Below, piece by piece: positions 16,765 to 29,144 of a DNA stretch of 64,000 nucleotides. How positions within the stretch are numbered: position 1 is the stretch's first letter; every line of letters begins with the position of its first letter. A program made the translations under genes and the position numbers. The stretch is from Aquimarina sp. MAR_2010_214 (lineage in GTDB: Bacteria > Bacteroidota > Bacteroidia > Flavobacteriales > Flavobacteriaceae): the NCBI RefSeq assembly GCF_002846555.1, contig NZ_PJMS01000001.1:4696501-4760500 (forward strand), given 5' to 3'. The notes beneath the pieces were generated by a model. It made no database searches. It saw only the letters and a program-made list of their open reading frames with translations, and had not been told where the DNA came from.

Positions 16765-17345
16765 TGAATGTGAGAGTCGGAAGTCAGGGGTCGGATGCTT
16801 GGAGTTAGAGGTTGGAAATGTAAAATGTAAAATGTAAAATGTAAAATGTGAAAGTAAAAAGTGAGAAGTCAGGCCTTCGACAGGCTCAGGGTGACGGAAT
16901 GTAGAAGTTCGAAGTCAGATGCTTGAAGTCGGAGATTGGAAATGTAAAACCGTAAAATGTAAAAGGGAAAAAGTCAGAAGTCAGGAGACGGGGGTCGGAA
17001 GTCAGGGAATTTGAGATTAGAAATACAAAAAAAAAGATGAAACAATACTATCATGTATAGTGATAAAAAAAGGAAAAGGTAGGAGTAATTTGTATAGCTA
17101 AGCTTAGTTGAGTTTGTGTAAAACACCCCATTTTTCAATTGCTCCTACTTCCTTTTTTAAAATGGAAAATGATAAATGAAAACAGTCAGAAGTCAGAAGT
17201 CAGAAGTCAGAAGTCAGAAGTCAGAAGTCAGAAGTCAGAGGTTGGATGCTTGAGGTCGGAAGTGAATCCAGACATCGAACCTTACAATTTATCTCAATAC
17301 TCAATACTCAATACTCAATACTAATATCTTAATACTAAATAGAAA
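16765..17345. repeat. Gene-free repeat block with three heptanucleotide tandem arrays
   Basis: No gene seen. The block contains runs of AAAATGT (about 16815-16850, five units), GTCAGAA (17185-17238, nearly eight units) and ACTCAAT (about 17293-17322, four units), all with a 7-base period. Looser relatives such as GGAAGTCAG, GGTCGGATGCTTG and AGGTTGGAAATG lie between them. A copy of the interspersed repeat CCTTCGACAGGCTCAGGGTGA lies near 16874. Similar GTCAGAAGTCGG text recurs at 18500-18520. Confidence 0.75.
17065..17158. other. Long imperfect hairpin (possible structured RNA or attenuator)
   Basis: Arms at about 17065-17090 (AAAAAAGGAAAAGGTAGGAG, then TAATTTG) and 17136-17158 (CAATTGCTCCTACTTCC, then a T run) pair with a few mismatches around a loop of about 45 bases that holds AAGCTT and GTGTAAAACAC. 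The T run after the right arm would suit a terminator for the upstream small genes; it could also be the body of a small RNA. It lies between two heptanucleotide arrays. Confidence 0.45.
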
Positions 17346-18690: not shown

Positions 18691-18858
18691 ATGAAAAAAT
18701 TAAAATCATTGCAGTCTTTTGAAGAGTCTGGCTACGCAATTAAATCAAGAGAAGCACAAAGAGCAATTACCGGAGGTCATACGATATTCGTTTCCAATTG
18801 CGGATCTAATCACGAAGATTACGATGTCGACACAGATGATACTGCCATAATCGCGTAA
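18691..18858 (+). CDS. RiPP precursor peptide 1 with GG leader (grasp-with-spasm cluster)
   Basis: 55 residues. The leader MKKLKSLQSFEESGYAIKSR continues EAQRAITGG; the core after GG is HTIFVSNCGSNHEDYDVDTD followed by DTAIIA. The basic N-terminus, the helical region and the double Gly match leaders cut by C39 peptidases, and such a peptidase/ABC exporter is encoded at 24195. The core mixes Thr/Ser with Asp/Glu, the residue types joined by ATP-grasp ligases in graspetides, and has one Cys. The gene lies 36 bp before the second precursor and 340 bp before the ligase. Confidence 0.82.
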   Translation: MKKLKSLQSFEESGYAIKSREAQRAITGGHTIFVSNCGSNHEDYDVDTDDTAIIA

Positions 18859-18894
18859 ATTAAAAGTAAATATTAATTATTAAAACAAAGAAAA

Positions 18895-19044
18895 ATGAAA
18901 CTACAAAAATTAGATTTCGATAATTTTGAAAAATACAAATTAGAAAACTCTATTCGTATTTTAGGAGGAGGAACTTGCATACATACTTGTTGTACTTCGT
19001 CTGGAGAAATTACCAGTTGTGAAGATACGCAAGATGATTCTTAA
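18895..19044 (+). CDS. RiPP precursor peptide 2 with GG leader (grasp-with-spasm cluster)
   Basis: 49 residues. The leader MKLQKLDFDNFEKYKLENSI ends RILGGG; the core is TCIHTCCTSSGEITSCEDTQ followed by DDS. It has four Cys, six Ser/Thr before the last acid cluster, and a C-terminal Glu/Asp cluster. This suits side-chain ester or amide links by an ATP-grasp ligase, and possibly disulfides or thioethers. The core differs greatly from that of peptide 1 although the leaders share the K-L/LQ...F pattern and the GG. Both genes sit upstream of a strong stem-loop, which may keep their transcript more abundant than that of the enzymes. Confidence 0.84.
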   Translation: MKLQKLDFDNFEKYKLENSIRILGGGTCIHTCCTSSGEITSCEDTQDDS

Positions 19045-19109
19045 AACAAGTAAGAATAAATACAATTGGTAAAAGAATTTGGTTTAATAAATCAAATAAT
19101 TGAGTTACC

Positions 19110-19161
19110 ACGTCAATTTCAGCTAGAAAAACAATTATTTTTTCTAGCTGAAGATTGACGT
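19110..19161. other. 22-bp stem-loop between precursor and enzyme genes
   Basis: The left arm ACGTCAATTTCAGCTAG continues AAAAA; the right arm TTTTTCTAGCTGAAG continues ATTGACGT. The arms pair over 22 bp with a single bulged base and a short AT loop. No long T run follows, so it may act as a partial terminator or as a 3' stability element for the precursor mRNA. It lies 65 bp after precursor 2 and 38 bp before the ligase gene. Confidence 0.75.
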
Positions 19162-19199
19162 TAATTAAAAAATAATTTTCTTTATCTAATAATAATTAA

Positions 19200-20177
19200 A
19201 TGATTTTACTATTATCAAAAGAATCTGATGAGTCTACAAATAACGTAATAGATTGGTTGGAATATTATAAAGCGGACTACACCCGATGCAATGGAGATAA
19301 ATTTGATTTGAATGACTTTTTCTTTCAAATATCAAACAACCATATAGATAAAGTTTCTAATCTTCCTGTTTCACCTAAAGACATTAATGTTGTGTGGTAC
19401 AGAAGATGGGGTAATATGAGCGGGCTGTCTTCAATTGATGATGAAGATTTAGACAATGAATTTTGTGTTTCAATCAATAATCATCTTAAACATGAAAAAA
19501 CCAAATTATCACATTCATTTTTTTCTCTTTTTGGACATTCTTTTTGGCTCTCTAAACCAGATTTATATTCTTCTGATGATAAGTTTTTATATTTAAAAAC
19601 AGCAAAATCAGTAGGAATAAATATCCCTGAAACCTACATATTAAATAGTAAGTCAAAATTACATGAAATACTTATATCTGGGAAAAAACTAATTACTAAG
19701 AGCATGAGTAACGCTCATAGAATTAGATACAACAATCAAACCTATATTCCGTACACAGAAGAGATCACCTTAGAAGACTTGGATAAACTTGAGGCGAAAT
19801 TTATGGTATCCCTATTTCAAGAAAAAATAGAAAAACAGTATGAAATACGAACTTTTTTTTTGAAAGACAGTTTTTATAGTATGGCAATTTTTTCTCAAAA
19901 TGATAATCAAACAAAGGTAGATTTTAGAAAGTATAATTTTTCTAAACCTAATAGAACTGTTCCATACATATTACCAGAAGAATTGAGAGTAAAGTTAAAG
20001 ATCCTAATGAAAAAACTCGACATAAATACAGGCTCAATAGATTTAATAAAATCAAAACAAGGGAACTACTATTTCTTAGAAATTAATCCAATTGGGCAGT
20101 TTGGCATGACATCTATACCCTGTAACTACCACTTGGATAAGAAAATAGCAGAGTTTTTAATTTCAAAAAACAACTAA
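19200..20177 (+). CDS. gwsG: ATP-grasp peptide maturase of the grasp-with-spasm type (GwsG-like)
   Basis: 325 residues. The pre-ATP-grasp part starts MILLLSKESDESTNNVIDWL and contains VVWYRRWG. The ATP-grasp domain follows from about 130, with the Lys of KLITKSMSNAHR, FQEKIEKQYEIRTFFL, and the metal/ATP-binding end SIDLIKSKQGNYYFLEINP followed by GQFG. This is the architecture of graspetide ligases, which use ATP to join Asp/Glu side chains to Thr/Ser or Lys of a precursor. The assignment to the grasp-with-spasm subgroup rests on the SPASM-only partner two genes on. It is separated by only 4 bp from the next gene. Confidence 0.88.
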   Translation: MILLLSKESDESTNNVIDWLEYYKADYTRCNGDKFDLNDFFFQISNNHIDKVSNLPVSPKDINVVWYRRWGNMSGLSSIDDEDLDNEFCVSINNHLKHEKTKLSHSFFSLFGHSFWLSKPDLYSSDDKFLYLKTAKSVGINIPETYILNSKSKLHEILISGKKLITKSMSNAHRIRYNNQTYIPYTEEITLEDLDKLEAKFMVSLFQEKIEKQYEIRTFFLKDSFYSMAIFSQNDNQTKVDFRKYNFSKPNRTVPYILPEELRVKLKILMKKLDINTGSIDLIKSKQGNYYFLEINPIGQFGMTSIPCNYHLDKKIAEFLISKNN

Positions 20178-20181
20178 AAAT

Positions 20182-20367
20182 ATGAATCCCGAAAATGAAG
20201 TTTCTCAATACATTATTAAAAAAAACTTACTAAAAAGATTACCGGTTTTAATGAATAAAATGACAATTATCAAAAAAACAAACAGAATAAATATAAGACA
20301 CGCAAAAAGTGTGTTTTATTCAACCAATGAAATGGCTTCTTACGCACCTTATAAAAAAATATTCTAA
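20182..20367 (+). CDS. 61-residue unknown protein, translationally coupled to the SPASM gene
   Basis: Starts MNPENEVSQYIIKKNLLKRL, rich in Lys/Arg/Asn, and ends STNEMASYAPYKKIF. There is no signal peptide, Cys or GG motif. It begins 4 bp after the ligase stop, and its TAA shares a base with the ATG of the next gene (TAATG), so it sits inside the operon and is very likely translated. It could be a third substrate without a cleavable leader, a leader-binding helper, or an immunity factor; the sequence does not decide. Confidence 0.65.
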   Translation: MNPENEVSQYIIKKNLLKRLPVLMNKMTIIKKTNRINIRHAKSVFYSTNEMASYAPYKKIF

Positions 20368-21386
20368 TGAAGTGTTCTTTTGAAAAAAATAGTTATTTCA
20401 AATTATTTAGTAATTGCAGAATAATTAAAGGAGCAAGTTCGTCAGCAATCTATGATTTGCAACGTGAAGAATTATTTCAGATACCAAATAGTTTTTTGGA
20501 AATATTAAATTGTTCTGGCTCAAAAAAAATAGAAGATATTTATTCTAAATACCCTAAAGAATCAGAAACTCTCGATGAATATTTTGGGTTTTTATTAAAT
20601 AAAGATTTGATTTTCCTAATGCCTGAGTTAAAAGACTCTGAAAAATTCAAAGAAATTGATTTTAAATATCATTATCCTTTTTCTCTTTTTTCAGTAATCA
20701 TTGCTCTTGACAATAATAAATTATCAATTTCTTATATTGAAAACCTACTTAATAACATTGAAGCAACCAAATGTAAATATGTACAATTAAGATTTGGTTT
20801 AGAGATTGACCATAAATTAATCTCAGATACAATAAAGCTATTCGTTGATAAAGGGATATTTAGATCAATAAGTGTTTTTCTGAGTCAAAATGATTATGAG
20901 TTAATGTTTAACGATGAATATTTGGCTAATTCATTGATAGATAAATTGACAATCTACTCAAGCAATAATAATCGCAGCAACATCAAATCAGATAATATTG
21001 AATATATAGAAGGATCAGACTTTCCGGTTTTTAAAAATTTAAACGAATTAAGATTCAACCATTTTCAACCTAATATTATTTCTTATTCAGAAGCTCTAAA
21101 TTATAATATTTATTACAACAAAAAAGCCTACATAAACCTGAATGGAGATATCCAACAATCTCCTTTTACCGATAAAGTTTTTGGTAACATAGAAACAAAA
21201 TCTTTACTATCCATTATTTCAAATCAAACGTTTCAGGAATATTGGGATATACCCAAAGATAAAATAGAAGTTTGTAGAGATTGCGAATTTAGATATGTTT
21301 GTAATGACGGCCGTATACCTTTAAAACGAGATGATGAGACGTATTATTTTGAAGAAAGTTGCACATACGACCCTTATAAAAACTAA
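20367..21386 (+). CDS. gwsS: SPASM-domain peptide maturase without radical-SAM motif (GwsS-like)
   Basis: 339 residues. There is no CxxxCxxC radical-SAM signature anywhere, yet the C-terminus has a SPASM-type Cys cluster: VCRDCEFRYVCNDGR at about 302-316 and SCTYDPYKN at the end. The segment AYINLNGDIQQSPF has the SPASM spacing but lacks its usual Cys. This odd architecture is the mark of the grasp-with-spasm partner protein. By family it helps the ATP-grasp ligase mature the peptide; its own chemistry is unclear and it may mainly bind the substrate. It starts inside the stop codon of the 61-residue gene. Confidence 0.87.
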   Translation: MKCSFEKNSYFKLFSNCRIIKGASSSAIYDLQREELFQIPNSFLEILNCSGSKKIEDIYSKYPKESETLDEYFGFLLNKDLIFLMPELKDSEKFKEIDFKYHYPFSLFSVIIALDNNKLSISYIENLLNNIEATKCKYVQLRFGLEIDHKLISDTIKLFVDKGIFRSISVFLSQNDYELMFNDEYLANSLIDKLTIYSSNNNRSNIKSDNIEYIEGSDFPVFKNLNELRFNHFQPNIISYSEALNYNIYYNKKAYINLNGDIQQSPFTDKVFGNIETKSLLSIISNQTFQEYWDIPKDKIEVCRDCEFRYVCNDGRIPLKRDDETYYFEESCTYDPYKN

Positions 21387-21408
21387 TTAAGAAATAAGAA
21401 AACTAGTC

Positions 21409-22266
21409 ATGAAAATAGTATTAAGGTTATTCATCTTAACCATTGTAATAACAAGTTGCAAGTCAGATTTTGAAAAAAAACATAAGGATTATAAACTTAT
21501 TAAGGAAGAAGGTGTATTTGTTGAAGTATTTGACTCTACAAATGTTAAACTTACCAGATTTACAGATAACAACAATGTTTACAGAAAAAAATTAGAGTTC
21601 ATATATTCTTACAAACATATTACAAAAAATAATAGCAAATACTATTTTAAAGAAGATCCATCAATAGACGGCTGGAGGGATTCTTGGAAGTTTGTTCCTG
21701 CTGACTCAATAGATGAAAACACTATTCTAGAGGTGAAGATTAAGATAGAAGAAGGGCTGAAAACTATCATACAATATGAACCAGATTATAATCAAACAGT
21801 CGCTCAATATAGCTACTTAACAAAAGATGAATTACCCGCTTTTAATTCAATTTCGGGAATTATAGAAAATGAAAAAAACGTATGGATGCATCCACCAAGG
21901 GATAAATATTTTAGGATTCTTGAGTTAAATCCATTTCCGTACATACAAACTCCTTTTGAAGTTGATAATAAATGGAATTGGTCATTAAAAATAGATAGTG
22001 ATTGGGGTGATAAAAGGTGGTTAACCTGGAAAGGAGTAATTGAAAACAATTATACTTATGAAATAACGGATAAAAAGAAGATAAATACGGCTTTTGGTAA
22101 ATTAGAGTGCTATACTATTAATGCCACAGCAACAAGTAGGCTAGGTGAAACCAAATTAACTTCACTTTTTAATACTGAATATGGTTTTATTAAATTACTT
22201 TATACAAATATTGATGGAAGTAAGACTAAATTACAACTTGATAAAGTAATAAAAAATGAACATTAA
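21409..22266 (+). CDS. Lipoprotein of unknown function in the RiPP operon
   Basis: 285 residues. Lipobox VITSC with lipidated Cys at residue 17. The rest is beta-rich with no recognised domain; notable segments are IQTPFEVDNKWNWSLKI and LTWKGVIENNYTYEITDKK, followed by FGKLECYTINATATS, a pattern seen in lipoproteins that form a beta-sheet over a ligand. It starts 23 bp after the SPASM gene, so it is cotranscribed. A role in self-protection or in handling the exported product is possible but unproven. Confidence 0.75.
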   Translation: MKIVLRLFILTIVITSCKSDFEKKHKDYKLIKEEGVFVEVFDSTNVKLTRFTDNNNVYRKKLEFIYSYKHITKNNSKYYFKEDPSIDGWRDSWKFVPADSIDENTILEVKIKIEEGLKTIIQYEPDYNQTVAQYSYLTKDELPAFNSISGIIENEKNVWMHPPRDKYFRILELNPFPYIQTPFEVDNKWNWSLKIDSDWGDKRWLTWKGVIENNYTYEITDKKKINTAFGKLECYTINATATSRLGETKLTSLFNTEYGFIKLLYTNIDGSKTKLQLDKVIKNEH

Positions 22267-22344
22267 AGATGAACATAGACTTTAATATAGAAAAAAAAAC
22301 TATAGACAATAAACATTTTACATAATTGTGAATTTAAACCTTTA

Positions 22345-22516
22345 AACCCGGATTATGCATTAGTAACTTCGTTATGAAGTTCGAAAATGCAATAAAATAT
22401 AATGTTTCATCGAATTCAGCATAGCACCGCTACGGTTAATTTGGGAAACATAACAAAGTGATATATTTTGAAGTAGTTTCGGACTGTAATAGATTTTCTA
22501 ATACATAATCTGGGTT
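22345..22516. mobile_element. MITE-like element (172 bp) with 19-bp terminal inverted repeats
   Basis: The left end AACCCGGATTATGCATTAG and right end CTAATACATAATCTGGGTT are inverted with two mismatches. A second nested inversion, ATGTTTC (22402-22408) / GAAACAT (22445-22451), lets the whole element fold into a cruciform. There is no open frame. It fills most of the 317-bp gap between the RiPP operon and the DUF6624 gene. Confidence 0.7.
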
Positions 22517-22583
22517 AAATTAATTTTTTAGAAATTTTCTTAAAATCGATTGGATACAGATATCCATCTAAAAAATATACCAA

Positions 22584-23603
22584 ATGAAAAAAATAATATT
22601 CCTACTAGTTCTAGTTCTGGTATTTTCCTGTAAACAGCAAAAAAAGGAAGTCAAAACAGAAATCACCTTCAAAGAGCTTACTGTTGAAGAGAAAGCCCAA
22701 TACGCTGCTTTAAAAAATGAAGCCTGGAAACTCTACCAATCCAAGGATTATCTACAATCTGCTAAGAAATACTCAGAAGCTTTTGGGATAAGTGGATACC
22801 ATGGGAATACATCAGATACGTATAATGCTGCTTGCTCCTGGGCTTTGACCAAAGAAATAGATTCTGCATTGGTACACCTATTACGAATTGCCAAGAGAGG
22901 AGAGTATACCAATTATAGCCACATTACCACAGATAGTGACCTATCTATCTTACATTCGGATAAACGATGGAACCAAGTTCTGGCACTGGTTAAAGCAAAC
23001 AAAGAAAAAGCTGAGATCAATTTTGACAAACCACTAGTTGCATTACTCGATACCATATACCAGGATGATCAAGGGCCAAGGAGACAAATAAATGACATCA
23101 TAAAAAAATACGGCAGAGATTCTGATGAGCTAAAACAACATTGGAAAAAAATAGCTACTAAAGATTCGATTAGCCTAATAAAAGTTGAAAAAATACTGGA
23201 TGAAAGAGGCTGGCTAAGTAAAGATATCATCGGCAATAGAGGAAATACTACCCTGTTTATGGTAATACAACATGCAGACTTAGAAGTGCAAGAAAAATAT
23301 CTACCCATGATAAAAGAAGCTGTAAAGAAAGGAAATATACGGCCTGGCAGTTTAGCATTACTAGAAGACAGAATCGCTATACGTAAAGGGGATCAACAAA
23401 TTTATGGGAGTCAAGTCGGGCGAGATGCAGAAACAGGTATATATTATATTTACCCACTACAAGATCCTGATCATGTAGACAAAAGAAGAGCAGAAGTTGG
23501 ACTTGGGCCACTGCAGGACTATGTTTCTAGATGGGATATCATCTGGGATTCAGAAAAATATAAACAACAATTACCAGATTTAGAAAAAAAACTAAAAAAG
23601 TAA
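22584..23603 (+). CDS. DUF6624 lipoprotein with N-terminal TPR-like region
   Basis: 339 residues. Lipobox VFSC puts the lipidated Cys at residue 16. Residues about 35-140 look TPR-like (LKNEAWKLYQSKDYLQSAKK, TYNAACSWALTKEIDSALVHL). The DUF6624 region spans about 150-320, with LDTIYQDDQGPR, ILDERGWLSKDIIGNRGN, FMVIQHADLEVQEKYLP and AEVGLGPLQDYV. The function of the domain is not known to me. It lies between the RiPP enzymes and the exporter but is separated by repeat DNA on both sides, so cotranscription is uncertain. Confidence 0.8.
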   Translation: MKKIIFLLVLVLVFSCKQQKKEVKTEITFKELTVEEKAQYAALKNEAWKLYQSKDYLQSAKKYSEAFGISGYHGNTSDTYNAACSWALTKEIDSALVHLLRIAKRGEYTNYSHITTDSDLSILHSDKRWNQVLALVKANKEKAEINFDKPLVALLDTIYQDDQGPRRQINDIIKKYGRDSDELKQHWKKIATKDSISLIKVEKILDERGWLSKDIIGNRGNTTLFMVIQHADLEVQEKYLPMIKEAVKKGNIRPGSLALLEDRIAIRKGDQQIYGSQVGRDAETGIYYIYPLQDPDHVDKRRAEVGLGPLQDYVSRWDIIWDSEKYKQQLPDLEKKLKK

Positions 23604-23612
23604 TTAAAAAAA

Positions 23613-23744
23613 CAGTTGTGCTTTTGAGATTTTTTAATTCGAAATTCGTCAATTCGATTTCTTCTACCATAGGAAGAAGTGTATCGAGCCCTTCGACACG
23701 CTCAGGATGACAAGAATTTTGAATTAAAAAAGCTATTCTCGATA
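23613..23744. repeat. 132-nt repeat, inverted relative to 26574-26705
   Basis: The reverse complement matches 26574-26705 over the full 132 nt with about 10 mismatches by eye. It contains GTGTATCGAGCCCTTCGACA and the palindromic-looking TTCGACACGCTCAGGATGAC. Related text continues to about 23830 (CTCGAGCGTAGTCGAG, CCGAAAAACCACTCGAATTA) and recurs near 26535-26555. Confidence 0.85.
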
Positions 23745-23985
23745 GCTCTGCTGAACTTGTTGAAGTACAATTTTTCTCCATATCATCTCGAGCGTAGTCG
23801 AGAGGTCATTCCGAAAAACCACTCGAATTACTTTCATTTTCGGAAGAACAGGATAGTATGGTAATTAAAAAAAACCTCATCCAATAGTTAGGATTTGCAA
23901 TCTGTGTTATCAAATTTATGAGCAATTTCTGGGTAACAAAAAAGCTACATAAGGCACTTATTTATAAAGAAATGAGATAGATTAG

Positions 23986-24102
23986 CGTGAAGGATAGTAG
24001 CGGCATCCTTTTTTCTATTTGCTTCCCTCTTTTTGCCTTAGCAACATGCATAAAGAATCAGAAAAAAGATATAGCGAATAGCCTGACCCATAGGGTCACG
24101 CC
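23986..24102 (+). ncRNA. Candidate structured RNA or 5' leader upstream of the exporter gene
   Basis: Several complementary segments are packed together: GCGTGA (23986) with TCACGC (24097), GGAT with ATCC around AGTAGCGGC, CCTTTTTTCT with AGAAAAAAG, and TGACCC with GGGTCA. The outer stem and the TGACCC hairpin share bases, so they are alternative folds. The segment ends 92 bp before the exporter ATG. The rest of 23745-24194 holds only repeat fragments. It may equally be another interspersed repeat. Confidence 0.4.
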
Positions 24103-24194
24103 TCAAAATATGACATTAGTATTATAGAAAAGAATTACTTTACTTTGTAGGTAGATACCATTACACAAAAATCAATTTAATTTAAAAAAGCTTA

Positions 24195-26399
24195 ATGCCT
24201 AAATTTCCATTTTACAAACAAGCAGAGTCGAAAGATTGTGGGCCTACTTGTATTAAGATTATCGCAAAACATTATGGAAGAGTTCTCAATACTCAAAAAC
24301 TTAGATCATTAAGTGAAACCACCAGAGAGGGAAGTTCTCTTCTGGGGCTTAGTGATGCGGTAGAGGAAATAGGTTTTAGGTCCCTGGGGGTAAAACTTTC
24401 TTTAAGCAAATTAGACGAGGTACCTCTACCTTGTATTGTACATTGGAACAAAGTACATTATGTAGTCGTCTATAAAATTAAAACCTCACGAAAAGGCGAA
24501 ATGACCATTTATGTCTCTGACCCTGCTCACGGATTGATTACCTATACAAAAGACGAATTTATAAAAGCATGGATCGGTAATAACGCCGACGAAAACACAG
24601 AAGAAGGTGTCGCCTTATTAGTAGAACCTACTCCCAATTTTTATAATGATAACCTGGATGAAGAGGATCAAAAATTTGGGTTTAAGTTTATATCCAAATA
24701 TGTATTTAAATACAAAGCCTTTCTTTTTCAGCTGGCATTAGGTCTAGGTGCAGGAAGTTTATTACAACTTATTACTCCGTTTTTAACGCAAAGTATAGTC
24801 GATGTCGGGATCAAAAATCAAGATCTAAATTTCATATACCTTGTATTGATCGCAATGCTTTCTTTGTTTATTGGTAGAACATTAATCGATGTTTTAAGAA
24901 GTTGGATTTTACTCCATCTTAGTACACGTATTAATATATCGCTGATATCAGATTTCTTTATTAAGCTCATGAATCTGCCTATCTCCTATTTTGATGTAAA
25001 AATGACGGGGGATCTTTTACAAAGAATTAATGATCACAAGCGAATCGAGCAGATACTAACCATGTCTTCTTTAAACGTGCTATTCTCGATGGTTAATCTT
25101 ATCGTATTTAGTATCGTTTTGATCTATTATAGCGTTCCTATTTTTGGTATTTTTGCAATAGGAAGTACGTTCTATTTTGCATGGATACTTGTGTTCTTTA
25201 AAAAACGTAAAAAACTGGATTACAAACGCTTTTCGCAGATTAGTGAAGAGCAAAGTAAGGTTATCGAACTGGTAAATGGTATGCAGGAAATAAAACTGCA
25301 TAATGCCGAAAAAAGAAAACGATGGAACTGGGAGTTTGTACAGGCAAAACTGTTTAGAATATCTATTGAGAGTCTAGCTCTGGAGCAGTACCAAAGTGTA
25401 GGTTCTTCTTTTATTAATGAATTAAAAAACATTCTCATTACGGTTTTCTCTGCAAAACTGGTTATAGATGGTGATATCACATTAGGTATGATGCTGGCGA
25501 TTACAGCCATCGTAGGGCAATTAAATGCACCTATCTCTCAATTAATTAATTTCCTAAGAGAACTACAGGATGCACAAATCTCTTTAGAACGTCTGGGAGA
25601 AATTCATAATAAAGAAGATGAAGAGCATCCTGGTGATGAAAAGATTAGAGATATCTCGGCAAACTCAGGTTTTGAAATCAAAAATCTTAGTTTTAGATAT
25701 GTTGGAGCTGATAAACCCGTTTTAGAAGACCTGAATCTTTCTATTCCCGCTAATAAAATCACAGCTGTTGTTGGGGTTAGTGGTAGTGGAAAAACAACAC
25801 TAATGAAGCTCCTTCTTAAGTTTTATGAGCCGGATGAAGGACAGATTTTTATTGGCTCTCATGATTTACATAATGTATCCCAAAAAGCATGGAGAGATCA
25901 ATTTGGTGTGGTGATGCAGGAAGGGTATATTTTTAATGATACTATTGCTAATAATATTGCAGTAGGAGAAGATTATCTGGATAAGAAAAAATTAGCACAT
26001 GCAGTCGATGTTGCTAATATCAAAGAGTTTATCGAATCACTCCCTCTTTCTTATAATACCAAAATAGGGATGGAAGGTGTAGGATTAAGTACCGGACAAA
26101 AACAAAGGCTGTTTATAGCTCGGTCGGTATATAAAAACCCTAAATATTTGTTCTTTGATGAAGCCACTTCTGCTCTTGATGCCAATAATGAAAAGGTAAT
26201 CATGGAAAAACTGGATACCTTCTTTAAAGACAAAACTGTAATGGTGATTGCACATCGATTGAGTACCGTAAAAAATGCACACCAGATTGTTGTTTTAGAT
26301 AAGGGTAAAATTGTAGAAGTAGGAAATCATGAATCACTAATCAAAGAGAAAGGAAACTATTATCACCTAGTTAAAAATCAACTCGAATTAGGAAAATAA
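24195..26399 (+). CDS. C39 peptidase-domain ABC transporter (GG-leader peptide exporter)
   Basis: 734 residues. The N-terminal C39 peptidase domain (1-130) has catalytic C15 in SKDCGPTC, H88 in NKVHYVVVY and D109 in YVSDPAHG. The transmembrane domain follows (about 165-450), then the ATPase domain with Walker A GVSGSGKTT, signature LSTGQKQR, Walker B YLFFDEATSALD and the switch His in IAHRLS. By family it cuts the leader after Gly-Gly while exporting the peptide. It matches the two GG precursors at 18691 and 18895, with the HlyD-type adaptor at 26882. The gene is bracketed by the 132-nt inverted repeats. Confidence 0.94.
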   Translation: MPKFPFYKQAESKDCGPTCIKIIAKHYGRVLNTQKLRSLSETTREGSSLLGLSDAVEEIGFRSLGVKLSLSKLDEVPLPCIVHWNKVHYVVVYKIKTSRKGEMTIYVSDPAHGLITYTKDEFIKAWIGNNADENTEEGVALLVEPTPNFYNDNLDEEDQKFGFKFISKYVFKYKAFLFQLALGLGAGSLLQLITPFLTQSIVDVGIKNQDLNFIYLVLIAMLSLFIGRTLIDVLRSWILLHLSTRINISLISDFFIKLMNLPISYFDVKMTGDLLQRINDHKRIEQILTMSSLNVLFSMVNLIVFSIVLIYYSVPIFGIFAIGSTFYFAWILVFFKKRKKLDYKRFSQISEEQSKVIELVNGMQEIKLHNAEKRKRWNWEFVQAKLFRISIESLALEQYQSVGSSFINELKNILITVFSAKLVIDGDITLGMMLAITAIVGQLNAPISQLINFLRELQDAQISLERLGEIHNKEDEEHPGDEKIRDISANSGFEIKNLSFRYVGADKPVLEDLNLSIPANKITAVVGVSGSGKTTLMKLLLKFYEPDEGQIFIGSHDLHNVSQKAWRDQFGVVMQEGYIFNDTIANNIAVGEDYLDKKKLAHAVDVANIKEFIESLPLSYNTKIGMEGVGLSTGQKQRLFIARSVYKNPKYLFFDEATSALDANNEKVIMEKLDTFFKDKTVMVIAHRLSTVKNAHQIVVLDKGKIVEVGNHESLIKEKGNYYHLVKNQLELGK

Positions 26400-26881
26400 T
26401 ACTTGAATTAATAATTACGAATTGAGAATTACGAATTAGATGAAAAAAGAAAATGTTGTTCAAACCAAAAGTTATGAATTTGCATTATTATGTATCCGTT
26501 GTGCATTTAGAAATTAATAGCATAAAAAAGCGTCAATTCGAATGGTTTTTCGGAATAGAATGAAGAAAAATTGTATCGAGAATAGCTTTTTTGATTCAAA
26601 ATTCTCGTCATCCTGAGCGTGTCGAAGGGCTCGATACACTTCTTCCGCTGGTCGAAGCACTCGAATTGACGAATTTTGAATTAAAAAATCTCAAATGCAC
26701 AACGGTTATGTGTATTAAATTATATCAAAACTGTATCGTACATAACAAAATTGAATGTTATAGAAATGAGTTGGTTTATCATTCCGACTGATTTAGTCCG
26801 GTGCAAAAAATGGATTCCAGTCTACACTGGGATGACAAATAATTATTAAATTAAAAAAATCGCAATACATAATTAAATATT
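26400..26881. repeat. Gap with second arm of the 132-nt inverted repeat (26574-26705)
   Basis: No gene seen. Bases 26574-26705 are the inverted partner of 23613-23744; upstream (26535-26573) is a shortened version of the flanking text (GAATGGTTTTTCGGAAT, GAAAAATTGTATCGAG). Near 26812-26833 lies TGGATTCCAGTCTACACTGG, another common short repeat type. A 66-codon frame across the repeat is a by-product. Confidence 0.8.
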
Positions 26882-28174
26882 ATGCCAGACACTTTAGACG
26901 AAATACAATTACGTAGTGAAGAAGTACAGGAAATCCTAACCAGGGTTCCGCATTGGATGATACGATGGGGAAATCTCTTGATTTTGGTATTGGTACTACT
27001 GTTATTATTTCTTTCCTGGCTGGTTAAGTATCCCGATGTGATACCTGCAGAAGCGATTATCACTACTCGAATACCACCGCAAAAAGAATATGCCCAAACT
27101 AATGGTAAAATTGAATCTCTATTTGTTAAAGACAATCAAATTGTACCCAAAAATACTCCCCTGGCAATATTAGAAAGCAGTGCTAATTATAAAGATGTGT
27201 TTTTGCTTAAATCTATTGTAGATACCATCAAAGTAAATACTAAATCATTCACATTTCCTATTGATGAGTTACCGGTTTTATTCCTGGGAGATATCGAAAC
27301 CAGCTATGCCATATTCGAAAATAGCTATTCTGAGTATATCCTAAATAAAGAATTACAGCCTTTCTCTAATGAAGCTATTGCAAATCAAACCTCTTTATCA
27401 GAACTCTACAGACGCCTAGAGAGTCTAAAGGCTCAAAAAAAGCTTGGTAAAGCCGAACTGGAATTTAAACGAAAAGAGCTTCAGCGTCAAAAAAACTTAT
27501 TTAAAAAAGGGGTAATCTCTGCACAAGAATTCGAAAGTAAAGAGCTCGATTATCTACGAACTAAACGTAATTATGAAAATAACGACGTGCAACTATCTCA
27601 AATTAACGAGAGTATTAGTAACGCTACCAAAACGTCTAAAGGTACAGAGATTAACAAGAGAAAAGAAGAAATTAACCTGTTTAAAAAAGTGTTACAGTCC
27701 TTTGGGCAATTAAAGAAAACCATTAAAGACTGGGAGTTGCAATACGTGCTTAAATCTGATATCGAAGGTCGTGTTTCTTTCCTTAATTTTTGGACAGAAA
27801 ATCAAACCGTAGCCCTGGGAGATCTTGTTTTTATTATTGTCCCTTCAGAATATTCTTCTTATCTGGCAAAAATCAAAGCTCCTTCTCAAAATTCGGGAAA
27901 AATAAAAGTGGGACAAACTGCTAATATTAGATTAGAAAATTTCCCTGATGATGAATTTGGAACCTTGAAAGGTAAAGTAAAACACATCTCCCTGTTACCA
28001 GATAAAGATGGGTTATATCTTATTGATGTTGAATTGCCCGAAAAACTAATTACTACCTATGACAAAGAAATTCCTTTTAAACAAGAAATGAGAGGTGTTG
28101 TAGAAATTGTTACCGAAGATCTTCGGCTTATTGAGCGTTTCTTTTATCAGTTTAGAACATTAATGGATAAGTAA
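26882..28174 (+). CDS. HlyD-family membrane fusion protein (exporter adaptor)
   Basis: 430 residues. A short cytoplasmic N-terminus is followed by one transmembrane helix at about 34-55 (LLILVLVLLLLFLSWLV) and the start of the biotinyl-lipoyl domain (EAIITTRIPPQKEYAQTNGK, NTPLAILESSANY). A long coiled coil at about 170-280 (RLESLKAQKKLGKAELEFKR) comes next, then the return lipoyl half (VLKSDIEGRVSF) and a beta-barrel (VGQTANIRLENFPDDEFG). It should link the ABC exporter to an outer membrane channel, which is not in this window. It is the last gene of the RiPP locus. Confidence 0.92.
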   Translation: MPDTLDEIQLRSEEVQEILTRVPHWMIRWGNLLILVLVLLLLFLSWLVKYPDVIPAEAIITTRIPPQKEYAQTNGKIESLFVKDNQIVPKNTPLAILESSANYKDVFLLKSIVDTIKVNTKSFTFPIDELPVLFLGDIETSYAIFENSYSEYILNKELQPFSNEAIANQTSLSELYRRLESLKAQKKLGKAELEFKRKELQRQKNLFKKGVISAQEFESKELDYLRTKRNYENNDVQLSQINESISNATKTSKGTEINKRKEEINLFKKVLQSFGQLKKTIKDWELQYVLKSDIEGRVSFLNFWTENQTVALGDLVFIIVPSEYSSYLAKIKAPSQNSGKIKVGQTANIRLENFPDDEFGTLKGKVKHISLLPDKDGLYLIDVELPEKLITTYDKEIPFKQEMRGVVEIVTEDLRLIERFFYQFRTLMDK

Positions 28175-28200: not shown

Positions 28201-28511
28201 AGTTTGACATAAGAAAACTAAGTCAGTTCTAAAAAAACAGATAAAAATTATATCCATTGAAAGGAAATGACGAAAGATAAACTGAACCCTCCATGTCTGG
28301 TCGAGTGATTTTTCGCAATATCCTCTCGACTACGCTCGAGATGACATGGAGAAAAATTGTATCGAGATCCAATTGTGGTAATACCCCTTATTGCATCTCG
28401 ATACAATTTTATCAACCGCTATCACTACTGATAAAATCACTCGATGAGACGTAAGAGTATAAAAATCAACAAGCCAAATAATCTGTCAATAGTGTTTTCT
28501 TACGTCGAACT
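28201..28511. mobile_element. MITE-like element (311 bp) with 18-bp terminal inverted repeats
   Basis: The left end AGTTTGACATAAGAAAAC and right end GTTTTCTTACGTCGAACT are inverted, with 16 of 18 matching. Inside are nested inversions: TCGAGTGATTTTT (28301) with ATAAAATCACTCGA (28430-28443), and AAAATTGTATCGAGAT with ATCTCGATACAATTTT. The same end sequence bounds the element at 35124-35247. No coding frame. Confidence 0.75.
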
Positions 28512-28526
28512 CAGATTTTAAGTAAA

Positions 28527-29144
28527 TTATACGTCTACTTCTTCTGATATTTCTCCCTGAGTAGAATTAACCTCTTCTGAAACTTCTTCCTGAGAAGGGT
28601 TTACTTCTTCTAATATTTCTTCCTCAACAGAATCAACTTCTTCTGATATTTCTTCTTGAGAAGAACTAACTGCTGCTGCTTTAGGTTGGGCTTTTTCAAG
28701 TTGTTCCTCCTCACCTGAGAAATAAGGAAACACATCCATGATAGGAGATTCTGAAATTGCCGGTACTGTATAATCACTAACAGAATCCTTCATCATACTA
28801 ATGGTATTATCATAGGCTTCTTTTACATCATTAGCCTGTACTAATAAGTACATACTCGACTTTCTTTCTTTACCACTTTCTTCATCATAAGAAACTAAGG
28901 CTACTTTTGATTTAAACCATCGATCAGAATTTTCAAAAGGATGGATCTCGGCAAAATTTGCAATCTTAATATTCGTGATTTTAAATTCTTCACTAATATA
29001 TGCTGACATTTCTTCGTTGATTCTGGTTTCAGCTTCTGTATAGGATAAAGCATCTACCAAATAAGGTTCTGTAGTAACTTTCTGTACTCCAGAATCATCT
29101 ATTTTTCTATACTTTACTTTACATTCATACCAAGTAGTGCTCAT
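28527..29144 (-). CDS. DUF4494 protein with acidic repeat tail
   Basis: 205 residues. Residues 1-150 form the DUF4494 domain (MSTTWYECKVKYRKIDDSG, YLVDALSYTEAETRINEEM, SDRWFKSKVALVSYDEESGK, SMYLLVQANDVKEAYDN), typical of Bacteroidota and cytoplasmic. The C-terminal 45 residues are four degenerate copies of an acidic unit (SQEEISEEVDS, VEEEILEEVNP, SQEEVSEEVNS, TQGEISEEVDV), added to a domain that usually ends near residue 150-160. Function unknown. Its promoter element is at 29164-29171. Confidence 0.85.
   Translation of the reverse strand: MSTTWYECKVKYRKIDDSGVQKVTTEPYLVDALSYTEAETRINEEMSAYISEEFKITNIKIANFAEIHPFENSDRWFKSKVALVSYDEESGKERKSSMYLLVQANDVKEAYDNTISMMKDSVSDYTVPAISESPIMDVFPYFSGEEEQLEKAQPKAAAVSSSQEEISEEVDSVEEEILEEVNPSQEEVSEEVNSTQGEISEEVDV

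Follow-up and report, generated by a model that had tools for sequence, protein, structure and literature searches.

Gene Content of the Locus

A 64,000-nucleotide stretch of the genome of Aquimarina sp. MAR_2010_214 (contig NZ_PJMS01000001.1, positions 4,696,501 to 4,760,500; hereafter the window, whose own numbering is used throughout) carries at 18691–28174 a series of nine genes, all on the + strand and all with intact reading frames. Judged by its sequence, it is a locus of the grasp-with-spasm type, a known kind in which an ATP-grasp ligase is paired with a SPASM protein, and it probably constitutes an intact gene set that ties two small peptides into rings and exports them. The host sits with Aquimarina, its best named matches being Aquimarina sp. 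AU58, A. megaterium XH134, and A. latercula. The series begins with two precursor genes with double-glycine (GG) leaders (18691..18858 and 18895..19044). These are followed by the ATP-grasp graspetide ligase (19200..20177), a 61-residue protein that occupies the place of the "LPL" family described in the literature (20182..20367), the SPASM protein (20367..21386), two lipoprotein-like proteins (LIPO1, 21409..22266, and a tetratricopeptide repeat/DUF6624 protein, 22584..23603), an exporter joining a C39 peptidase to an ATP-binding cassette (C39-ABC, 24195..26399), and a periplasmic adaptor of HlyD type (26882..28174).

A preliminary description of this DNA had placed two GG-leader genes, a ligase, a SPASM protein, an exporter, and an HlyD adaptor on a single strand, and all of them lie where it placed them. 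The profile searches that it proposed as a check, judged by the equivalog cut-offs of NCBIfam, give 306.7 bits for the ligase (TIGR04192, cut-off 230) and 181.5 bits for the SPASM protein (TIGR04193, cut-off 175). Thus, as in the grasp-with-spasm family, the two genes are paired on the same strand, both score above the curated cut-offs, and GG precursors are adjacent. The description had also called the locus complete, a term that would require an outer-membrane channel, and none is found among the genes scanned. It overlooked the two lipoprotein genes, a hairpin between the precursors and the ligase, and the 61-residue gene, which is a further member of the maturation set beyond ligase and SPASM protein.

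The SPASM Protein

The SPASM protein passes its cut-off by just 6.5 bits, whereas a relative reaches 463.6 bits, and it is thus a divergent member of the family. Its relatives were gathered from 80 named loci, the best of 495 candidate stretches encoding such relatives in one genome collection, and from further genome stretches. Among 151 profile-matching open reading frames (ORFs), 142 have 290–430 residues, and 129 rows are left after dropping those identical over the C-terminal 250 residues. The CxxxCxxC motif of radical S-adenosylmethionine (SAM) enzymes is found in none of these 129 distinct full-length proteins, window included, and none of the ten locus proteins scanned matches PF04055. 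In contrast, the AuxII-type cysteines (C303, C306, C312, and C332 in the window) are present in 128 of the 129 rows. Four further cysteine columns, corresponding to L225, Y249, S265, and G315 of the window and taken by us as AuxI ligands from the spacing typical of SPASM domains, behave in an all-or-none manner: 95 rows have all four, 33 have none, and one is partial. The partial row, L196, is probably misaligned, its profile match ending early (1–315 of 342). The window protein is AuxI-less; it has the AuxII-type four only and lacks the ligands of a second auxiliary cluster. A quick tree of 128 rows, made without L196 and with the four AuxI columns specified for exclusion, shows about two changes of the AuxI state, the long AuxI-less branches making placement unsure.

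A predicted model of the protein (66 rows; predicted local distance difference test, pLDDT, 90.9; predicted template modelling score, pTM, 0.87) consists of a domain at about 9–87 resembling a ribosomal peptide recognition element (RRE), a short degenerate radical-SAM barrel, and a C-terminal SPASM domain. The N-terminus has the RRE order of elements, with strands within 10–39, three helices within 41–78, and a strand at 82–85, and residues 1–87 match RREs structurally at modest scores. The nearest structural relatives of the model are SPASM/twitch radical-SAM enzymes (SuiB, CteB, and anSME folds), the best Foldseek match being SuiB (E 2.8e-5), while sequence searches of the protein and its profile against solved structures found nothing. 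The model has no radical-SAM cluster loop, in agreement with the label "SPASM-only" given by the preliminary description. A radical-SAM function is rejected, as the motif is absent from all rows, and on sequence grounds the protein is not a radical-SAM enzyme. We read it instead as a putative partner of the ligase that binds the leader: it resembles a radical enzyme without its radical centre and may serve to hold the peptide.

TIGR04193 matches occur in 31 of 66 Aquimarina genomes (28 above cut-off), 19 of 299 genomes in a sample of the family (11 above), and 30 of 395 in a sample of the phylum (12 above); many of the matches below cut-off are short SPASM-domain matches in other proteins.

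The Ligase and the Small LPL-Type Protein

The relatives of the ligase in the PDB are 5IG9 (MdnC) and CdnC (7MGV), at E 1e-24. These microviridin and chryseoviridin ligases share the ATP-grasp fold and chemistry of the window ligase, and they are not known to have a SPASM or an LPL partner. The leader helix of microviridin-type ligases is not conserved over the 119 ligases compared. Between precursor 2 and the ligase lies a strong hairpin on the + strand (19103..19166), within a region (19085–19175) that folds at −28.1 kcal/mol (z −8.7; none of 200 shuffles as low) and that may set the ratio of precursor to enzyme.

The stop codon of the 61-residue gene, which has a homologue in loci L041/L042, shares one base with the start codon of the SPASM gene. 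A small ORF fills the gap between ligase and SPASM genes in 104 of 119 pairs, counting that of L075, which falls short of the SPASM gene and is left out of the motif analysis. An LPhh motif, searched with patterns of our own devising, is present in 62–63% of the remaining 103 small ORFs, compared with means of 19–21% and maxima of 35% and 32% in shuffles. A KPISK-like tail is present in 51 of 74 small proteins from pairs with AuxI and in 1 of 29 from pairs without it (Fisher 3e-10), a p-value that is not to be trusted, as the pattern was written after viewing the sequences and AuxI changed only about twice, so that the events are not independent. This comparison sets aside 16 of the 119 pairs (13 and 2 without a small ORF, and one odd row). 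In L059 the small protein is fused to the SPASM protein (435 residues), in a single Thermoanaerobaculum metagenome bin where a sequencing error is possible; residues 22–81 of its AlphaFold model, considered for docking of LPL on the SPASM protein, are under pLDDT 50. No further fusion is found among the matches listed for the 395 Bacteroidota genomes, considering strong TIGR04193 matches in frames long enough, and no confident fold was obtained that would make the LPL protein an RRE or a PqqD. The motif, the tail, and the fusion are leads toward a three-part complex, not proof of it. The same Thermoanaerobaculum bin has three grasp-with-spasm loci (L058, L059, and L073).

Precursor Peptides

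Precursor 1 (55 residues) has a 29-residue leader ending in AITGG and a 26-residue core; precursor 2 (49 residues) has a 26-residue leader ending in LGGG and a 23-residue core. Both leaders start Lys-rich and end in GG. Their GG sites are above chance, because only 3 of the 97 ATG-initiated ORFs of 38–89 residues, counting the whole window and both strands, have GG at residues 16–40, these two included. The core of precursor 1 contains 3 Thr, 2 Ser, 5 Asp, 1 Glu, and 1 Cys, and that of precursor 2 contains 5 Thr, 4 Ser, 3 Asp, 2 Glu, and 4 Cys. Neither has Lys, and therefore esters are the only usual graspetide links predicted.

Both precursors have homologues in two other Aquimarina loci, L041 and L042, in the same order and ahead of a ligase (E 5e-9 for precursor 1; 4e-10 and 1e-10 for precursor 2), and precursor 2 has a weaker match (2e-6) in the Chitinophaga locus L112. 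Each is present in 3 of 66 Aquimarina genomes, its own counted. The NCG element of precursor 1 is kept in its two Aquimarina homologues with acidic residues behind it, and homologues of precursor 2 keep the GTC, TCC, and CED elements, again with acidic residues behind, and the four cysteines. Both precursors fall short of every curated precursor family; the best match is PF14406 for precursor 2 (15.4 versus 25 bits). Core cysteines were compared in 108 of 168 precursor candidates, after removal of duplicates and of those without a clear GG site. No link between AuxI state and core cysteines is seen among the 108, and cores without any cysteine amount to 27/73 and 11/35. Upstream of the AuxI-less pairs L184, L188, L190, L193, and L197 there are one to five small genes with a common QYWCG and no clear GG site before it; by their sequences these are a different precursor type.

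Lipoproteins and Turnover of the Cassette

Both lipoproteins were recognized by a lipobox identified by eye. LIPO1 matches no Pfam family above its cut-off, and the second matches PF20329 (77.2 bits, cut-off 27). A DUF6624-like match is present in 22 of the 80 named loci, and DUF6624 is frequent in several graspetide groups (PMC13097080).

The site is variable among sister species. AU58 shares with the window the exporter genes and the upstream genes for a 159-residue and a helix-turn-helix protein, at 89–93% DNA identity, but has three other genes instead of the precursors, the ligase, the small gene, and the SPASM start. At the same place, A. megaterium has a different cassette, with two other GG precursors, a ligase, a small gene, and an AuxI-bearing SPASM gene, along with a remnant of the end of a window-type SPASM gene, a shortened DUF6624 gene, and an intact LIPO1. 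In genome G315, LIPO1 accompanies still another cassette, and the 19-kb stretch there contains no exporter; G304 and G320 have LIPO1 without a SPASM gene in the stretches fetched and SPASM genes elsewhere in the genome. The six Aquimarina copies of LIPO1 that were compared are all full length (dN/dS 0.16–0.33 over 15 pairs). Of the 10 Aquimarina genomes with LIPO1, 8 have it within about 1.5 kb of a SPASM gene or remnant, in differing surroundings. Such turnover with LIPO1 retained resembles, by analogy, antagonism loci in which the weapon is gone and the immunity genes persist. Near LIPO1 in G320 (L207 12015–15794) there is another peptide export system: a 740-residue C39-like transporter accompanied by two further small GG peptides.

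The Exporter and a Second Pair in the Host

The exporter has the C39 domain (PF03412, 113 bits) with the catalytic residues C15, H88, and D109 given in the preliminary description; the adaptor is above cut-off for PF13437 and below it for TIGR01843 (97 bits). Together they form an intact C39-ABC/HlyD pair, separated from the maturation genes by the two lipoprotein genes and repeats. Among the named loci, many of them cut by contig ends, 29 of 80 have a same-strand match of at least 350 residues to the window C39-ABC and 21 of 80 an HlyD match of at least 150 residues; among loci over 18 kb, 20 of 50 have a window-type C39-ABC match. The host has a second grasp-with-spasm pair (C1:747089–749190; L024 9087–11233), whose ligase is below the TIGR04192 cut-off (137.5 bits) and whose SPASM protein is far above that of TIGR04193 (377.7 bits), with a candidate glycine-rich GG precursor of 93 residues about 2.7 kb upstream. 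No C39 or HlyD match is found in the 19 kb around this pair, and one further C39 gene exists in the genome; exclusive pairing of the exporter with the maturation genes of the window, implied when it was described as matching, is therefore unproven, and one exporter may serve both pairs. Elsewhere, a Chitinophagales bin has three tandem ligase–SPASM pairs in about 10 kb (L110 18–10068), with its first ligase truncated where the contig stops.

Comparison with Known Systems

Graspetide loci of "branch 5" have LPL proteins that always lie directly upstream of the SPASM gene and whose motif has been likened to the leader motif bound by other ligases (PMC8939145). They have in common with the window GG precursors upstream of the ligase, a small protein before the SPASM protein, lipoproteins, and C39/HlyD. 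That work compares LPL with PqqD, whereas the SPASM protein of the present locus lacks the radical-SAM motif and itself includes an RRE-like part. The locus probably belongs to "group 14" graspetides, by their description rather than by a ligase network: in these a SPASM protein always co-occurs and NHLM-type exporters often do, and no product is described in the accessible text (PMC13097080). In the rosaritide system the ligase MirB needs a partner protein, MirC, which is the mode proposed here, but MirC is of PpiC type and not a SPASM protein (PMC13097080). The pseudo-rSAM family TIGR04150, by its name radical-SAM-like without real activity, is matched by 10 of 66 relatives and, at 0.1, not by the window protein. 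Pseudo-rSAMs are accompanied by a genuine radical-SAM enzyme (PMC10352776), unlike the situation here, where the scan of ten locus proteins for PF04055 was negative.

In the open-licence literature we found neither the phrase "grasp-with-spasm" nor a product or tested enzyme role for any such locus. The loss of the motif, the RRE-like part, and the split of these SPASM proteins into one- and two-cluster forms are not stated in its accessible text, including PMC9576775 and PMC10734526, and the available part of an article on RREs (PMC12710340) mentions neither SPASM nor graspetides. The locus is thus a known kind in a variant undescribed in the open-licence text at hand.

Proposed Mechanism and Alternatives

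The best explanation as a whole, which we consider moderately probable, is a grasp-with-spasm graspetide locus with a non-radical SPASM partner. The ligase would phosphorylate Asp/Glu side chains of both cores, and attack by Thr/Ser hydroxyls would give side-chain esters, lowering the mass by 18 Da for each ring. No radical chemistry would be performed by the SPASM protein: its N-terminal RRE-like domain would hold the GG leader, while presenting the peptide to the ligase would fall to the inactive radical-SAM barrel and its one remaining Fe-S site. The LPL-type protein may assist the SPASM–ligase complex, the C39 exporter would cut after GG and export the product, HlyD would bridge to an outer-membrane channel coded elsewhere, and LIPO1, perhaps with the DUF6624 lipoprotein, may protect the producer.

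One alternative, found in print, concerns the SPASM protein, which the 2022 survey (PMC8939145) treats as a radical SAM enzyme, pointing out a conserved precursor cysteine; it would then be an active maturase adding thioether or C–C links to cysteine-containing cores. Its SPASM domain, its structural relatives, and the four cysteines of precursor 2, kept in a homologue, agree with such a role, but with no radical-SAM motif in the family, no cluster loop in the model, and many cores devoid of cysteine, we regard it as very improbable. Alternatively, the remaining Fe-S site may carry out SAM-independent chemistry on the peptide, redox or Lewis acid, as a second modification besides the esters. 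The conservation of AuxII-type ligands despite the loss of the radical-SAM motif speaks for this, but auxiliary clusters can be purely structural and no precedent was found in the literature text accessible to us, and we think it unlikely.

LIPO1 is at most a tentative candidate for self-protection, and the chances that it is involved in the system are about even. Several points weigh against the interpretation proposed here. The window's own ligase keeps two acidic residues of the leader helix. In 10 genomes of other genera, the LIPO1 homologues have no SPASM match next to them (8 of these genomes lack a TIGR04193 match and 2 have one on another contig), and in the comparison of the window with G360 the dN/dS of LIPO1 (0.25) does not differ from that of the decaying SPASM gene (0.29). 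The last two would be expected if LIPO1 and the DUF6624 protein were unrelated residents of a recombination hot spot; the proximity of LIPO1 to SPASM genes or remnants and the frequency of DUF6624 in graspetide loci argue otherwise, leaving this a serious possibility, somewhat short of even. That the cluster is silent, or that its peptides are signals and not antagonists, is doubtful given the intact reading frames and a turnover at one site resembling that of antagonism loci.

A bolder form of the proposed mechanism makes the grasp-with-spasm enzymes a three-part split ligase. The ATP-grasp protein itself would no longer read the leader; LPL would provide in trans the LPhh motif, resembling that of microviridin leaders, and switch the ligase on, with its KPISK tail docked beside the AuxI site of the dead radical-SAM protein, whose RRE would hold the GG leader. 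AuxI cluster and tail would have been lost together in lineages including this locus, and the exchange of cassettes at a single site, with a lipoprotein kept, would mark these as antagonism loci. Taken with all its parts, this is on the unlikely side.

If the SPASM protein is a non-radical partner that holds the leader, heterologous work must include it together with the small protein and can dispense with SAM chemistry, and the family would be a further example of graspetide synthesis that depends on a partner protein, of a different kind. With precursors this small and a variant that has a single cluster, the question can readily be tested.

Repeats around the Locus

Inverted-copy repeats surround the exporter genes: one of 144 nt (90%; arms 23601–23744 and 26574–26717) flanks the C39 gene, and another has 61 nt (92%; 23766–23826 and 28301–28361). 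These are possible recombination points. Upstream of the gene for the 159-residue protein, 16780–17269 is dense in short direct repeats (GAAGTCA and AATGTAA types), and 33-nt repeats occur at 28534–28678, within the coding tail of a − strand DUF4494 gene.
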